A DNA stretch of 52,225 nucleotides from positions 1 through 52,225 of the forward strand of contig DATJTX010000017.1 of the NCBI GenBank assembly GCA_035502855.1, in the 5' to 3' direction. A program made the translations under genes and the position numbers. The notes beneath the pieces were generated by a model that saw only the letters and a list, made by a program, of their open reading frames with translations, did no database searches and was not told the DNA's origin. This DNA is from Candidatus Baltobacteraceae bacterium (GTDB taxonomy: Bacteria; Vulcanimicrobiota; Vulcanimicrobiia; Vulcanimicrobiales; Vulcanimicrobiaceae). The first letter of the stretch is position 1, and each line of letters begins with the position of its first letter. Shown here piece by piece: positions 1-5,802 of the stretch.

Positions 1-567
1 CTTGAGGCATTGCGAGACTATCACACGCCCGCTGCACTGATCACGCGCTCGCCTCTCGTGATTCGTGACATTGACGTCTTACAGCAGCTCTCGCTCGTCG
101 CCGGCGCTAGCGTCTCGGTTAGCATCGCTACCTTAGACGAAACGTTGGCTCGCGACATCGAGCCCACTGTCGCACCACCTCACCAGCGCCTTCGCGCTGT
201 CAGAATGCTCTCCGACGCCGGCATCCGAGTAAACGTAGCCCTTGCACCAATTCTCCCACGAATCTCCGATTCACCGGAGAACATAACGGCCGTTGTCCAC
301 GCAGCGCGAGCGGCTGGTGCCTCCAGCGTGTGGCACAACACGCTCCATCTGCACGACGTTACGCGCGATGCATTTTTCGGTTATCTGCGCGAGCGAAGGC
401 CCGAGTTACTTGCAGAATATGCCTCGCTTTACCGCGGTAAATATGCTCCAGGTGACGTAGCTGCTGCCGTTGATAAACGAGTAAAAGAAGCGCTTTCGTC
501 CTCGCCTCGCCGAGGCTTAACGACGATCCAATCGCGAGCGCCCCTGCAGATCAGTCTGCTGGAATAG
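1..567 (+). CDS. Radical SAM protein (Rv2578c/SplB-like), C-terminal part, copy A
   Basis: The reading frame is open from the first base, so the gene starts upstream of the window. The visible 188 residues (LEALRDYHTPAALITRSP..., SIATLDETLARDIEPTVAPP, LRAVRMLSDAGI, VWHNTLHLHDVTRDAFFGYL) are the C-terminal half of a radical SAM protein of the Rv2578c/spore-photoproduct-lyase-like group. The CxxxCxxC cluster motif is outside the window. By eye it is about two-thirds identical to the copy at 4981-5802, but its codons are less GC-rich, like those of the Mg2+ genes that follow. I infer it is the 3' half carried by an inserted island; the substrate of this subfamily is unknown to me. Confidence 0.85.
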   Translation, partial: LEALRDYHTPAALITRSPLVIRDIDVLQQLSLVAGASVSVSIATLDETLARDIEPTVAPPHQRLRAVRMLSDAGIRVNVALAPILPRISDSPENITAVVHAARAAGASSVWHNTLHLHDVTRDAFFGYLRERRPELLAEYASLYRGKYAPGDVAAAVDKRVKEALSSSPRRGLTTIQSRAPLQISLLE

Positions 568-582
568 CGCATGATTTAGGCG

Positions 583-604
583 AGCCAAATCGACAGTTTT
601 GGCT
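583..604 (+). terminator. Possible weak terminator hairpin after copy A
   Basis: AGCCAAA pairs with TTTGGCT across a short loop, 16 bases after the copy A stop codon. There is no long T-run, so termination is only possible. Confidence 0.3.
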
Positions 605-631
605 TGACAACGCTGCCCGGGCGAGTATGCT
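604..631 (+). promoter_or_regulatory. Sigma70-type promoter of the M-box/Mg2+ transport unit
   Basis: A perfect -35 box TTGACA (604-609) is followed after 16 bases by TATGCT (626-631). Predicted initiation near 638 falls just before the first conserved M-box base, which supports the assignment. Confidence 0.65.
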
Positions 632-639
632 TGTCGAGG

Positions 640-805
640 CTTCCTCGTTAGGTGAGGCGTCTGCACAAGAACAAGCCGCTGCCCAGAAAGGTCGAGAGAC
701 CCCAACGGGTTGACCAGATTCCGCCGAATCAAGGCGGAATCTAACGCGGCTGAGACCTTCGGGCCTCTACGGTGTGCAGTGCTAAAGCTCTACAGTGAGG
801 AGAGA
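640..805 (+). promoter_or_regulatory. M-box (ykoK leader) Mg2+ riboswitch
   Basis: The sequence carries the hallmark M-box blocks in order: TCGTTAGGTGAGGC near 644, CCGCTGCCCAGAAA near 680, a GGTCGAGAGACC hairpin followed by CCAACGGGT, a helix built from ATTCCGCC and GGCGGAAT, GCGGCTGAGACC, and the 3' block GTGCTAAAGCTCTACAG (about 779-795). These match my recollection of the ykoK/M-box consensus. M-box RNAs bind Mg2+ and usually stop transcription of Mg2+ transporter genes when Mg2+ is plentiful. Here it sits between a promoter and an intrinsic terminator, upstream of an Nramp-related Mg2+ transporter gene. Confidence 0.93.
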
Positions 806-837
806 TTCCGCGGCCTGGCCGCGCGAGTGTTTCTTGA

Positions 838-876
838 CTGTTGCCTGCGAGGACGTATGCGACAGTTTTTTATTTT
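838..876 (+). terminator. Riboswitch expression-platform terminator
   Basis: CTGTTGC (838-844) pairs perfectly with GCGACAG (859-865), directly followed by TTTTTTATTTTT. A GC-rich hairpin at 809-823 precedes it. This is the expected transcription-off structure of an M-box. Confidence 0.85.
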
Positions 877-1011
877 TGAGAGGGGGTGATGTCAAGCCAT
901 GGACGATGGACCGAGTAGTCGATCTAGCCGCAGGCTCGCAATGAGCCGTTTAATCCTGCCGTGCCCGTCTGTTTGGCGCGGCAAACCGTAACTTTTTAGG
1001 AGAGATGTGTC

Positions 1012-1155
1012 ATGAAGAAAATCTTGGCGCCCTTGCTTCGCGCTGCCCTCATGCGCCTTAACGGCGCGAACGAAGTTCACAACGATCTGCTTCGAGCAAA
1101 TCAGTTCAGCGATCGCCCTCCGATTGGTGTCTACCGTGCCATCCTCGGAGGATAA
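1012..1155 (+). CDS. Short leader ORF upstream of the NRMT transporter (47 aa)
   Basis: An ATG follows a good ribosome binding site (AGGAGA near 999). The ORF encodes 47 residues beginning MKKILAPLLRAALMRLNG and ending YRAILGG. Its stop lies 4 bases before the transporter ATG at 1160, and the transporter's GGAGG site is inside its last codons, so translation would be coupled. It shows no clear membrane segment and I recognise no family. It could be a leader peptide or a small protein of the transporter operon. Existence is inferred from the ribosome site and spacing alone. Confidence 0.45.
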   Translation: MKKILAPLLRAALMRLNGANEVHNDLLRANQFSDRPPIGVYRAILGG

Positions 1156-1159
1156 GCCA

Positions 1160-2776
1160 ATGGCAACGATAGTAGACGGCGCGCACCTGGATACGATGCA
1201 TGCGGGCGATATTCGCGGAGCATTCGGTACGATTGCCAAGAATGATACTGGCTCGCGCAAGGGTCTATGGGCGAAGCTCGTGGCTTTCGCGGCAATCGTC
1301 GGCCCGGGACTCATCGTCATGGTCGGCGACAACGACGCAGGCGCATTCTCGACCTACACGCAGGCTGGACAAAACTACGGTACGACACTGTTGTGGACCC
1401 TACTGCTATTGGTTCCCGTTCTCTTCGTAAACCAGGAGATGGTGCTGCGCCTTGGCGCCGTTACGCGCGTCGGCCACGCGAAACTCATCCTCGAGCGTTT
1501 TGGAAAGTTCTGGGGTGCTTTCAGCGTCATCGATCTGTTCATCCTCAACGCTCTAACGATCGTCACTGAATTCATCGGCATCAGCCTCGCGCTGGGCTAC
1601 TTCGGCGTCCCTAAGATTGCGGGCGTCGCCGTCGCGGCCGTGCTTGTCATGATGGGCGCGGCGACGGGAAGTTTTCGCCGCTTCGAGCGCTTTGCGATGT
1701 TGCTCTGCTTTGGAAGCCTGCTACTGATTCCGGTATTCGTGATGGTGCATGCGCCGATCGGGCAGTCAACACGTGACTTTCTAATACCGAGCATGCCGAG
1801 AGACTCGGACCTAGGAGTCGTCATGCTGCTCATTATCGGCATCGTCGGGACCACGGTAGCGCCGTGGCAGCTATTCTTCCAGCAGAGCTATGTCATCGAC
1901 AAGCGCATCACCACGCGCTGGCTCAACTACGAACGTTGGGACCTGGCTCTCGGCATTGTTTTCGTCGTGCTCGGCGCGTTCGCGATGTTCTCGTTTACTG
2001 CGGCCACGTTTGCGGGCCACAAGGAATTCGGCAATTTCCAGGACGCCGGCGCGGTTGCCGCGGGAATCGCGCACTACGTCGGGCGCCTCCCAGGCGATCT
2101 CTTCGCACTCGCCCTCCTGGACGCGGCGATTATTGGGGCCGCAGCGGTTTCGCTATCGACAGCCTATGCCATTGGCGACGTGATGTCGCTAAACCATTCG
2201 TTGCATCGCAAAGTCGGCGACGCGCCGGTCTTCTATCTCGTCTATGCGGGACTGATTGTTGTTGCGGCAACGATCGTGCTCATTCCCGGGAGCCCGCTCG
2301 GACTCTTGACGAACGCCGTACAGGTACTCGCGGGTGTGCTATTGCCGAGCGCGACCGTCTTCTTGCTACTGCTCTCCAATGACAAGGCGGTGCTGGGTCC
2401 TTGGGCAAACACGCGCCGTACGAACATCTTCACCGGCGTCGTTATCGCTGCATTGGTGATGCTCTCGGTAGTCCTCACCGCTGCAACGGTCTTCCCATCG
2501 ATCGGCACCATTCAGATTCTTTGGATTCTCGGCGTGGGAGCGATTCTAGCCGTTATTGCCGGCTTTTGGATGGCGTTCGTGCCAGGTGACATCGACTACA
2601 CGTCATTCGACCGTTCGCAGCGCCATCAGTGGCAGATGCCTTCGCTTAGCTCTCTCCCAAAGGTTCGCTTAAGTCTTGCTAACCGCTTTTGGCTTATCCT
2701 ACTAAGGGCATATCTGATTCTCGCCGTCGGGCTCGTGGTGTTCCGCGTTGCTCTCCTCGCGCTGCACAAAGGATAG
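1160..2776 (+). CDS. Nramp-related Mg2+ transporter (NRMT/NMgt-like)
   Basis: A 538-residue polytopic membrane protein of the Nramp superfamily. The ATG at 1160 is chosen because GGAGG lies 8 bases upstream; the frame is open from a TTG at 1124. TM1 reads GPGLIVMVGDNDAG (D57, N58, D59), not the DPGN of Mn2+/Fe2+ Nramps. TM6 reads GTTVAPWQLFFQQS, lacking the metal-binding methionine of MPH. Both changes are typical of the Nramp-related Mg2+ transporters described in Clostridium and Eggerthella. The upstream M-box independently points to Mg2+ rather than Mn2+. Downstream genes (porin, MgtC) read in the same direction with an 8-base gap or less, suggesting one Mg2+-controlled operon. Automated annotation would probably call it MntH. 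Confidence 0.88.
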   Translation: MATIVDGAHLDTMHAGDIRGAFGTIAKNDTGSRKGLWAKLVAFAAIVGPGLIVMVGDNDAGAFSTYTQAGQNYGTTLLWTLLLLVPVLFVNQEMVLRLGAVTRVGHAKLILERFGKFWGAFSVIDLFILNALTIVTEFIGISLALGYFGVPKIAGVAVAAVLVMMGAATGSFRRFERFAMLLCFGSLLLIPVFVMVHAPIGQSTRDFLIPSMPRDSDLGVVMLLIIGIVGTTVAPWQLFFQQSYVIDKRITTRWLNYERWDLALGIVFVVLGAFAMFSFTAATFAGHKEFGNFQDAGAVAAGIAHYVGRLPGDLFALALLDAAIIGAAAVSLSTAYAIGDVMSLNHSLHRKVGDAPVFYLVYAGLIVVAATIVLIPGSPLGLLTNAVQVLAGVLLPSATVFLLLLSNDKAVLGPWANTRRTNIFTGVVIAALVMLSVVLTAATVFPSIGTIQILWILGVGAILAVIAGFWMAFVPGDIDYTSFDRSQRHQWQMPSLSSLPKVRLSLANRFWLILLRAYLILAVGLVVFRVALLALHKG

Positions 2777-2783
2777 CGGGCCA

Positions 2784-4115
2784 ATGTTCTTCGCCGTTCT
2801 TTTGACGACCATCGGCGCAGCTATACCGGCGGTACCCATTCCAACGCCAAAAACGACCCCAACGCCGGCACCCGCTCGTTGGAGCGTACACTGGCAGGCA
2901 ACCAACACACAGCAGTACCATGGGGCCTTCCCCGCCGCGTACTCCGGCGCCAACAGCCTTTCGAATATGCCCGATACGCAGAAAACCTTTTCGTCGACGA
3001 TCTATTTGGGTTACCGTCTCTGGAAAGGCGCTGAGGCATTTTATAACGAGGACATCGACCAGGGCTTCGGCTTCGGCAGTACGCTCGGTCTTGCGGGCTT
3101 CTCGAGTGGCGAGGCATACAAGGTCGGTGCCTCACGTCCGTACGAGCGTGCGCACCAGTACTTCATCACTCAGACTTTCAATGAGGGCGGTGGCACACAG
3201 TCGGTCGATTCGGGACAAAATGTCATTGCCGGATCTCAAGACGTACGGAACATCACCCTTACTGGGGGGAAGTTCTCCGTCGTAAATATCTTTGACAACA
3301 ATGTCTATGCCCACGACCCACGCAATGATTTTTTGAATTGGTCGGTCGTCGATATGGGAGCATTCGATTACGCCGCCGACGCCTGGGGTTACACCTACGG
3401 GCTAGCGGCTTCGATCAACCGCGCGCAATCGGCCTTCACCGTTGGTCTCTTTCAACTGTCCAAGACGCCGAACACGACGGTCATCGAGAGGGTCCCATTT
3501 CTTCAGTATTCGCCAGTGTTGGAGTATGATCGCAATATGTCGCTCTTCGGCGGACATCCGGGAAAATTTCGCTTCTTGACCTACGGCGACTACGGATACA
3601 TGGCGCCACTAGCGGATACGATCTCATATGCCGCGGCTTCTGGCACGACGCCAAACCCGCTGTTGTTCCGTCAAAATCGCCACTGGAAGATCGGCGAAGG
3701 GGTCAATATCGAGCAAGAGCTCGCGCCCCACGTAGGCGCCTTCCTACGCTTGAGCGCAGACAACGGCTCGTATGAAGCGTTCGATTTCACCGAGATCGAC
3801 CGTTCGGCGGAACTTGGCCTTTCGGTCGACGGGACACCGTGGCATCGACCGAATGATACCGTGGGAATTGCCGCCGTCCAGAATTCGATATCCGCCGTTC
3901 GGCAACAGTATTTAGCAGACGGTGGTCTTGGAATCCTGATCGGCGACGGTGGACTATCATATGGACCCGAAAGCGTTCTCGAAACCTACTATAGATTCAT
4001 GATCTTCAAGGGGTTCTCGCTCAAGGGCGATTACCAACGCGTCGTTAACCCGGCGTACAACACGGTGCGCGGCCCCGTATCAATTTACACGCTCCAATTT
4101 CACTATCAGATCTAG
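2784..4115 (+). CDS. OprB-family carbohydrate-selective-type porin
   Basis: 443 residues from ATG 2784, whose ribosome site AAAGGA overlaps the end of the transporter gene. An N-terminal signal peptide (MFFAVLLTTIGAAIPA) is followed by a proline/threonine-rich linker. The body has OprB-like landmarks: W..HWQATNTQQYHGAF, YSGANSL, TIYLGYRLWKGAEAFYN, GFGFGSTLGLAGFSSGEAYKVG. It ends YTLQFHYQI, an aromatic-ending beta-strand typical of outer-membrane barrels. OprB porins usually pass sugars. Placed between an Mg2+ transporter and MgtC under an M-box, a role in Mg2+ passage across the outer membrane is inferred and not known for the family. Confidence 0.85.
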   Translation: MFFAVLLTTIGAAIPAVPIPTPKTTPTPAPARWSVHWQATNTQQYHGAFPAAYSGANSLSNMPDTQKTFSSTIYLGYRLWKGAEAFYNEDIDQGFGFGSTLGLAGFSSGEAYKVGASRPYERAHQYFITQTFNEGGGTQSVDSGQNVIAGSQDVRNITLTGGKFSVVNIFDNNVYAHDPRNDFLNWSVVDMGAFDYAADAWGYTYGLAASINRAQSAFTVGLFQLSKTPNTTVIERVPFLQYSPVLEYDRNMSLFGGHPGKFRFLTYGDYGYMAPLADTISYAAASGTTPNPLLFRQNRHWKIGEGVNIEQELAPHVGAFLRLSADNGSYEAFDFTEIDRSAELGLSVDGTPWHRPNDTVGIAAVQNSISAVRQQYLADGGLGILIGDGGLSYGPESVLETYYRFMIFKGFSLKGDYQRVVNPAYNTVRGPVSIYTLQFHYQI

Positions 4116-4125
4116 GTGGGATGCT

Positions 4126-4236
4126 ATGTTTGACAAGCGCGAACGGATGCAGCTCATCGCTCTGCTCGTCTATGGAGCGATCCTCATCGTCGGAGGTATC
4201 GTCGTGGTGCTTCGCTTCATAAGGGGAAGATTTTGA
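4126..4236 (+). CDS. 36-aa single-pass membrane peptide next to mgtC
   Basis: ATG 4126 opens a 36-residue ORF beginning MFDKRERMQLIALLVYG. A charged N-terminus is followed by one hydrophobic helix (about residues 9-29) and a basic end (RFIRGRF). The preceding bases include AGGTGGG at 4114-4120 as a possible ribosome site, and its stop TGA overlaps the TTG start of mgtC. Position and size recall small Mg2+-regulatory membrane peptides such as MgtR and MgtS, but no sequence similarity is claimed. It may modulate MgtC or the transporter. Confidence 0.55.
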   Translation: MFDKRERMQLIALLVYGAILIVGGIVVVLRFIRGRF

Positions 4237-4970
4237 CTAACGGCATGCCAGCCACCGAGCTCTTCGCCCTGCATGTCTTTGTCGCACTGCTGCTGGGCGT
4301 CGTGATCGGCCTCGAACGGCAATGGCGCCAACGCATGGCCGGCCTTCGTACAAATGCGTTGGTCGCTTTGGGCGCTGCGCTTTTTTCATCCATATCGATC
4401 CTGATGAACGCCGGAACAAACCCTACGCAGGTAGCGGCGTACGTCGTCTCCGGGACGGGTTTTCTCGCCGGTGCTGTGATTTTCAAGGAAGGCTTCAGCG
4501 TACGAGGCCTAAATACGGCCGCGACACTGTGGGCAACAGCTGCCGTGGGAACGCTTTGCGGTTCCGGGTTTCTTTCGGAGGCAACGATTGGCGCTGTTGC
4601 CGTGCTCGCGGCGAACGTTCTCCTTCGCCCGATTGTGCAACGGATTAACCGTCAGCCCTTCGGTCAGACCGAACTGTCGCAAGCCTATGAAATCACGGTG
4701 AGCTGCTCGGGCGCACATGAGGAAACCGTGCGCGCCGACGTGCTTGCCCAAATTCGGGTGACAACATTGCTCTTGCGCTCGTTAGAAAGCCGCAATCTTC
4801 AAGATGATCACGTTGTCGTTAAGGCGGTCGTCATTGCTAGCGACCGCGCCGACACGAAGCTCGAGCGCATTGTCGGACGCCTCAGCCTTGATCCGAAGAT
4901 CGTCGCCGCGAGCTGGCGTATGGCGGCCGTTTCCGACGACGAAACCCTGGAGTCGGCGCCCGAGGGGTGA
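4233..4970 (+). CDS. mgtC: MgtC/SapB family membrane protein
   Basis: 245 residues. The N-terminal half carries the MgtC signature FVALLLGVVIGLERQWRQRMAGLRTNALVALGAALF (quoted in part: GLERQWRQRMAGLRTNALV), then further hydrophobic segments and a soluble C-terminal domain ending about residue 235. TTG 4233 is preferred because AGGGGA lies 5 bases upstream; ATG 4245 is an alternative. MgtC proteins are tied to growth under low Mg2+ and inhibit F-type ATP synthase in Salmonella. It is the last gene of the M-box unit and ends within 30 bases of the remnant of the right radical SAM copy. Confidence 0.9.
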   Translation: MTNGMPATELFALHVFVALLLGVVIGLERQWRQRMAGLRTNALVALGAALFSSISILMNAGTNPTQVAAYVVSGTGFLAGAVIFKEGFSVRGLNTAATLWATAAVGTLCGSGFLSEATIGAVAVLAANVLLRPIVQRINRQPFGQTELSQAYEITVSCSGAHEETVRADVLAQIRVTTLLLRSLESRNLQDDHVVVKAVVIASDRADTKLERIVGRLSLDPKIVAASWRMAAVSDDETLESAPEG

Positions 4971-4980
4971 CTCTTTTGAG

Positions 4981-5802
4981 AAACCTCATATACAGGAAAA
5001 ATGCGGCTGCTACCACCAGTGCGTGTTTTGCTACGCTCGCCGCACCCACTCATATCTGGAGGAAGACGGCGTCGCACGCTGGGGCAGCCGCCTCTACGTC
5101 AAGGTCAACGCGCCGGCCGTCGTGCGCACCGAGCTGGCGAAACGCGGCTGGAAGCGCGAGCCGGTGGCGATCGGAACGGTGACCGACCCGTATCAGCCGC
5201 TGGAGGGTCGTTACGGGATCACGCGCGGCATTCTCGAGGCGATGCGCGACTATCGCTCGCCGGCCAATCTGATCACCCGATCACCGCTGATCGTGCGTGA
5301 CGTCGACGTGCTCGCCGATCTCGCCCGGGTCGCGAGCACGCACGTTTCGATCAGCATTGCCACGCTCGATGAACGGATCGCGCGCGAGATCGAACCAACC
5401 GTGGCGCCGCCGCGCCAGCGCCTGCGCGCGGTGCGCATGCTGGCCGAAGCGGGCATTCACGTCAACGTTGCGCTCGCGCCGGTGCTGCCGCAAATCACCG
5501 ATACGCCCGAGTCGATCGACGCCGTCGTCAAAGCCGCGCGCGACGCCGGCGCCGCCAAGGTCTGGCATAACACCCTCTACTTGCATGACGTGACACGTGA
5601 CGCATTTTTTGGTTACCTGCGCGAGCACCGGCCGGAGCTGATCGCGCAGTACGCGCAGCTCTATCGCGGGACCTACGCGCCGCGCGCCGTCGCGGATCGA
5701 GTCGAAGAGGAAGTCCACGGTGCACTCGAGCGCAACCCGGCGCGAGCACTGCCGCGCATCCGCAGCGAAGCTACCGTCCAGCTCTCGCTCCTGTCACCCT
5801 GA
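4981..5802 (+). pseudogene. Radical SAM protein (Rv2578c-like) copy B, 5'-truncated
   Basis: The homologous part starts at the 4Fe-4S site: CYHQCVFCYARRTHSYLEEDG contains CxxxCxxC (Cys at codons 5008, 5020, 5029). It continues with LYVKVNAPAVV, EPVAIGTVTDPYQPLEGRYG and an intact C-terminus. The usual N-terminal region before the NPYxGC motif is missing: the codons read K-P-H-I-Q-E-K-C-G-C, as if NPYI-GC had been broken. The frame stays open back to 4804 only by running through mgtC in another frame. Codon use is GC-rich like the rest of the chromosome, so this is probably the native gene's 3' part, beheaded by the island. Expression of a shortened protein from a start near 5001 would still include the cysteines and is not excluded. 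Confidence 0.75.

Follow-up and report, generated by a model that had tools for sequence, protein, structure and literature searches.

A putative GInt-type island inside the cluster motif of a radical SAM gene carries a complete second copy of that gene, probably as a replacement

Genomic islands bounded by a tRNA or protein gene carry the displaced end of that gene and restore its 3' end. The GInts are islands with a four-gene module (GinA-D) at one end, cargo immediately after it, a short AT-rich far end and insertion at a specific site; the targets given in the available text are gene ends (ssb, RNR alpha) or the 5' end of a gene, and the authors expect no complete inactivation of the targets (PMC5385486). 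The GInt criteria also comprise a need for all four genes in excision and integration, and a circular form. The name Tn6571 family is used for such elements in the available part of PMC10121019. The strand-biased circularizing integrative elements (SEs) show the order intA-tfp-intB-srap, with a degenerate second recombinase-like gene and a 6-bp spacer logic (PMC10214605, available text), and Tn554-like elements comprise tnpA, tnpB and tnpC only. In the Tn554-like staphylococcal element Tn552-II, a gene resembling the target gene (tgl) lies beside the recombination genes, and rescue by tgl is suggested by the authors in the available text (PMC12486829). A full-text search for target copies in the main text of mostly open journal articles yielded this tgl as the one parallel, and the GInt literature within the same scope held no report of a complete target copy as fifth gene. 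The tgl gene is the nearest published precedent found for the locus described here.

The DNA analysed in this work (the window, 52,225 nucleotides) is contig C17, positions 1-52225, of a draft genome of 3.33 Mb in 39 contigs, and it holds the right part of an element whose left part lies on contig C37. Position 1 of the window is a contig end, and both contigs end inside copy A, the radical SAM gene borne by the element, which appears truncated in the window because the contig ends there. When C37 is reversed, its last 141 bases match the first 141 of the window exactly, this stretch being unique in the genome apart from the two contig ends, and the radical SAM fragment at the start of C37, MRGVEIIETRAKSLLNRVKGMAFEWSINCYRGCSHQCVFCYARRTH, continues into the window's own frame. 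As the element spans two contigs, the joining of C37 to C17 rests on this overlap, on the running frame and on synteny, and the element as read here is to that extent a putative one. From core to core it measures 10,452 bases, with its right end at window position 5003 and a GC content of 56%, and the GC of the window climbs to 61-69% just past 5000. On C37 the order is the native 5' half of the gene, three tyrosine-recombinase-type genes, a TnpC-like gene of 138 aa and the start of copy A. A Pfam phage integrase domain was recognized in the first recombinase and below threshold in the second; the first and third recombinases present the catalytic Arg, His-x-x-Arg and His-Tyr motifs, and in the second one Asn replaces the first Arg in all three Eremiobacterota elements. 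The first-pass annotation, based on the window alone, had seen no integrase in 568-4970 and had advised a search for a recombinase upstream of the window. A family search in that interval likewise gave only the Nramp, OprB and MgtC families, and the three recombinase-type genes of C37 lie on the side that the annotation had indicated. The coordinates of the features are collected in Table 1.

Table 1. Features of the element and of the interrupted radical SAM gene (window positions unless another contig is named).
Feature	Position	Strand	Remarks
Copy A, element-borne complete radical SAM gene	1..567	+	Last 188 codons plus stop; first 107 codons on C37 (L019, 462 down to 1)
Assembly overlap with start of contig C37	1..141		Exact; nowhere else in the genome
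M-box (ykoK) magnesium riboswitch, RF00380	637..806	+	131.5 bits; cargo, ahead of Nramp/OprB/MgtC
Nramp-family transporter gene, cargo	1160..2776	+	ATG picked by eye; frame from 1124
OprB-type porin gene, cargo	2784..4115	+	ATG picked by eye; frame from 2748
36-codon frame, hydrophobic membrane-like peptide, candidate cargo	4126..4236	+	Overlaps TTG start of the MgtC frame; read from the sequence
MgtC-family gene, cargo	4233..4970	+	Family match
Short AT-rich right end of the element	4971..5002		31% GC
Right junction core GCGG	5003..5006		Found again on C37 at the left junction (CTACCGCGG followed by TTTTACGG of the element)
Native radical SAM gene, 3' half, without start	5003..5802	+	5' half on C37
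Native radical SAM gene, 5' half (MRGVEIVEQ...SINPYRG)	C37, L019 from 5682 downward		Reading from joined flanks

The interruption of the native radical SAM gene falls at codon 32, between the codons of SINPYRG and those of CYHQC, inside its cluster motif. Directly before the first recombinase, C37 reads MRGVEIVEQHAKSVINRVTGMPFKWSINPYRG, followed by foreign codons up to a stop, and the right junction in the window opens with the next codon of the gene; when the flanks were joined by script, a single open frame of 297 codons, stop included, resulted. The right-hand copy begins at the CxxxCxxC codons, as previously noted, since the preceding IQEK is element sequence and the gene resumes at CGCYHQCVFCYARRTH; the Rv2578c-family match of the frame ending at 5802 also begins at the cluster motif. 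In the genus-mate G033, the closest relative, the gene is uninterrupted (SINPYRGCYHQC) and adjoins BI-1 and purF, neighbours also found on C37, so the empty site with one intact gene that the first-pass annotation had hoped to see in a relative does exist. The agreement of the two native pieces, one on each contig, down to the codon, together with the uninterrupted gene of the closest relative, shows that this arrangement is not due to chance. GCGG is the only exact repeat common to both junctions, the GInt criterion being imperfect direct repeats of 10-17 bases. For both radical SAM copies the best model is the Rv2578c type (NF038135), below its cut-off: the native 3' part, with the motif present, reached 250 bits (E 2e-74) against a curated cut-off of 430 bits, which none of the 149 genomes of the phylum passes. 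A match to radical SAM mobile pair B (TIGR04470) was far under its cut-off and was discarded.

Only 3 bases separate the TnpC-like gene from the start of copy A, which has its own 5' end inside the element and so constitutes a complete second gene. It encodes 295 aa, of which 208 of 296 positions are the same as in the native protein, with a DNA identity of 65%. Its GC content is 57% (60% at third positions), close to that of the element, and the native gene assembled from its two halves shows 66% and 82%, respectively. In the tree, the native gene and that of G033 form one clade (100/99), and copy A groups with the gene of another relative, G055 (97/96). Copy A reads NCYRG where, among 29 relatives, 27 have NP, one has NV and only G055 has NC; this Pro to Cys change, common to G055, is the only striking one near the site. 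Copy A keeps the core TACCGCGG, and the core arms differ about as much as the whole gene does, so that a deliberate recoding of the site is not claimed. The four Rv2578c-type matches of the genome are all pieces named here (copy A and the native halves), and copy A is therefore its sole intact gene of this type. We infer that copy A supplies the enzyme function, its functional conservation being judged from the kept CxxxCxxC motif and its length only. These results bear out the original observation that two radical SAM copies flank the metal genes, the left one lower in GC and island-like and the right one host-like, and they support its interpretation in part, an island being integrated in a conserved protein gene exactly at the cluster-motif codons. 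The proposal that the island restores the gene with its own 3' half had to be abandoned, as copy A is complete and the native gene stays split. It had been reasoned that a 5' part of copy A also belonging to the island would speak against the whole reading; the 5' part does belong to it, which tells against the 3'-half model and leaves the island itself untouched.

Module layout places the element among the GInts in a broad sense, as judged by setting it beside the published description of GinA-D. Like a GInt, it has at one of its ends an operon in which a small gene follows three tyrosine-recombinase-type genes, its cargo begins near the ginD stop (copy A 3 bases behind, a ligase copy in a second element overlapping it), and its far end is AT-rich (31% against 56% for the element), unlike that of the ligase element (61%). 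In GInts, however, it is the third recombinase that is described as lacking the first Arg, whereas here the second lacks it and the third has it, and for this reason we regard the element as GInt-type or GInt-like, not as a strict GInt. It also differs in its target, a gene cut at codon 32 in the cluster motif with a complete copy brought along, where the GInt targets described are gene termini, and in its host, the phylum of the window not being among the hosts named in the available text of PMC5385486. The SEs resemble it in gene order, and a second gene without the first Arg occurs here too, as compared by description, but no target copy is described for them in the available part of PMC10214605. 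A Tn554-like element is not matched, since there is a further recombinase-type gene here. As for Tn552-II, its module is tnpABC, its target is YolD-like or a plasmid gene of unstated importance, with a copy of the same sort, and in the available text of PMC12486829 the target is not a conserved catalytic motif. The function of the target is apparently kept after integration, as in islands ending in tRNA or protein genes, but this island brings a second gene in full and leaves the native one broken.

In profile comparisons with five four-gene modules of proteobacterial plasmids, genes 1 to 4 of the module matched in order with E-values of 5e-59, 2e-37, 7e-65 and 3e-13, and a member of the Variovorax module reaches Pseudomonas plasmids (36 of 228 records). 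The third recombinase occurs in 3 of the 149 genomes of the phylum, including that of the window, and the nearest recombinase relatives in named genomes belong to two Candidatus Eremiobacterota assemblies. Searches of genome contigs gave nothing with the third recombinase and only the two Eremiobacterota elements already known with the second, and viral contigs yielded no recombinase relatives. A partial relative of the first recombinase (E 1e-53, a 221-aa frame) was seen at G091:C48:122337-122918 (L066) and is perhaps a vestige of a decayed island.

The same build was recognized at other loci. In G124 (C251), a module cuts an ATP-dependent DNA ligase gene in its KYDG motif: the 5' part, up to LVEDKYD, is followed by the module, by a complete 567-aa ligase with a 4-base overlap with the fourth module gene, by additional cargo and, beginning at KYDG, by the 3' part. 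Identity to the copy is 84% and 80% for the two split pieces, and the direct repeat of this element, AAGTACGA, is kept in the ligase copy. Among the other 10 genomes of the genus of G124, the ligase is full or near full-length in eight, G121 having distant ligase paralogues only and G127 ligase pieces only. A second ligase 3' piece (residues 387-567 by tblastn) lies 11 kb beyond the first, at L061:18055-18597 of the same contig, and perhaps stems from an earlier event elsewhere in the ligase gene. On Novosphingobium and Mesorhizobium plasmids (L070 and L072), two head-to-head modules interrupt an ArdC-like zincin gene at two conserved motifs, near HELGH and near EE[IL]VA, and a complete zincin gene lies on the far side of each module. 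On Mesorhizobium and Ancylobacter plasmids a DUF736 gene is cut near codon 14, residues 1-13 preceding the module, behind which come a complete 98-aa copy and then residues 15-98. A clear counter-case is the pirin element of G119 (C5), which cuts its target near the 3' end (RY|GPFVMN) and brings no pirin copy; in the genus-mates of G119 the pirin query matched to residue 265 of 267 in 10 out of 10, and the four that were followed further have RYGPFVMN. At L067:9764-17484 and L071:9534-17277, and alike at L077, a module that brings no copy seems to separate the N domain of a ParB-type gene from the remainder. In a survey of 21 loci hand-picked for variety (three from Eremiobacterota and 18 from plasmids, 12 of these from 37 records and six from 228), a stretch before the first recombinase matched something behind the fourth gene at six of the 21 loci, against 44 of 420 cross-locus pairs (p 0.022). 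At L074 and L111 the survey match lay in the stretch before the gene, and the coding pieces were established afterwards. There was no pairing in the remaining 15, including L068, L069, L073, L075, L076, L078 and L112-L116, where either no copy is present or the ends lie elsewhere.

The observations at the window's locus, namely the insertion site with its two ends, the recombinase module, the interrupted gene, the relative's empty site and the complete copy behind the TnpC-like gene, are best accounted for by a GInt-type island that splits the radical SAM gene in its cluster motif and carries a complete replacement that makes its integration tolerable, and we consider this reading well probable. 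The module would recombine by tyrosine chemistry across a short core and integrate between the SINPYRG and CYHQC codons of the Rv2578c-like gene; copy A would be read in one operon with the recombinase genes and make up for the enzyme that was lost; insertion into a conserved site, harmful otherwise, would then be tolerated, and the host would come to depend on the element. The pirin element without a copy and the 15 of 21 loci without pairing speak against this reading. Unless the joining of the contigs is false, it is hardly conceivable that the element instead fuses its own 3' half to the host 5' half, as islands in tRNA genes do. Such a fusion might be suggested by the 3' parts of the gene found at both ends of the island in the window and by the island-like GC of copy A, but the TnpC-like gene is followed by a start that belongs to copy A, and the 5' half of the host gene stands apart, before the first recombinase, running into foreign codons and a stop. 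That the joining of the contigs is an assembly error, with the island, the split gene and the copy not belonging together, is a worry raised by a draft in 39 contigs of which two end within copy A; the exact and unique overlap, the frame unbroken through it, the G055 homologue aligned to copy A across 293 positions at 82%, the left-flank synteny with G033 and the ligase element of G124, contained in one contig, make such an error highly improbable.

Two further explanations concern the role of the copy. Copy A could be cargo acquired by chance, a radical SAM gene unrelated to the site, given that GInts bear diverse cargo (PMC5385486, available text) and that cross-locus pairs also match in the survey, leaving a modest within-locus excess. 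This we hold to be very unlikely, as the copy is of the very gene that is cut and lies directly behind the module, and complete copies occupy the same place in the ligase, ArdC and DUF736 cases. The copy might also serve the element, as a stock of target sites or as immunity to a second insertion, with host rescue as a side effect: tgl of Tn552-II contains a copy of att within it according to the available text (PMC12486829), copy A and the ligase copy keep their respective cores, and two hits at separate positions were possible in the ArdC-like gene. Against this stand the complete open genes, which site storage alone would not need, and the core arms, which are no more plainly different than the rest of the gene, and we find the explanation improbable. 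Returning to the replacement copy, a broader proposal is that widespread islands with a recombinase trio swap genes, cutting catalytic codons and taking over the function with a foreign gene as the fifth of the recombination operon; this is a real possibility, although we stop a little short of calling it probable.

The fate of such a copy may be illustrated by G055, in which the native locus holds, without an island, an allele of the same kind as copy A (NCYRG, 82% identity; L081:2525-3541, on C216), with purF and BI-1 on one side and purD on the other. Its near relative G056 has the ordinary allele, NPYRG, and between the two genomes DNA identity is 90-93% in the flanking genes and 78% in the radical SAM gene. 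Since the flanks are nearly alike and the radical SAM gene has diverged, an allele of the element's kind has replaced the native one in G055; an island may have brought it there, or the island may have taken its copy from such a lineage. If the broader proposal is true, sites in catalytic codons can hardly mutate away, the host becomes dependent on the island, and the foreign allele can in time replace the native one, perhaps as in G055. It would explain how islands land in the most conserved codons of useful genes without harm to the host, and would offer a route for the exchange of conserved genes between lineages at their own locus. It would also provide a rule for finding island ends, namely to take the gene next after the fourth module gene and seek a split version of it, a rule that the DNA ligase, ArdC-like and DUF736 genes extend beyond the organism of the window.

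An intein remnant was rejected as the origin of the interruption, as the flanks rejoin without one and no recognisable intein ending stands before CGC. In NF038136, the intein form of the radical SAM family, the intein seems to lie close to the same motif, as judged from profile coordinates against both copies, and two kinds of mobile element may thus favour the same radical SAM codons. As for the cargo, the Nramp, OprB and MgtC genes behind a Mg2+ riboswitch are plausibly a metal-uptake set, which the main reading does not need. The 36-codon frame beside mgtC is, by its place, reminiscent of small MgtC-regulating peptides. The riboswitch and the three genes together make up a transferable metal cluster under Mg2+ control, carried by a mobile island.
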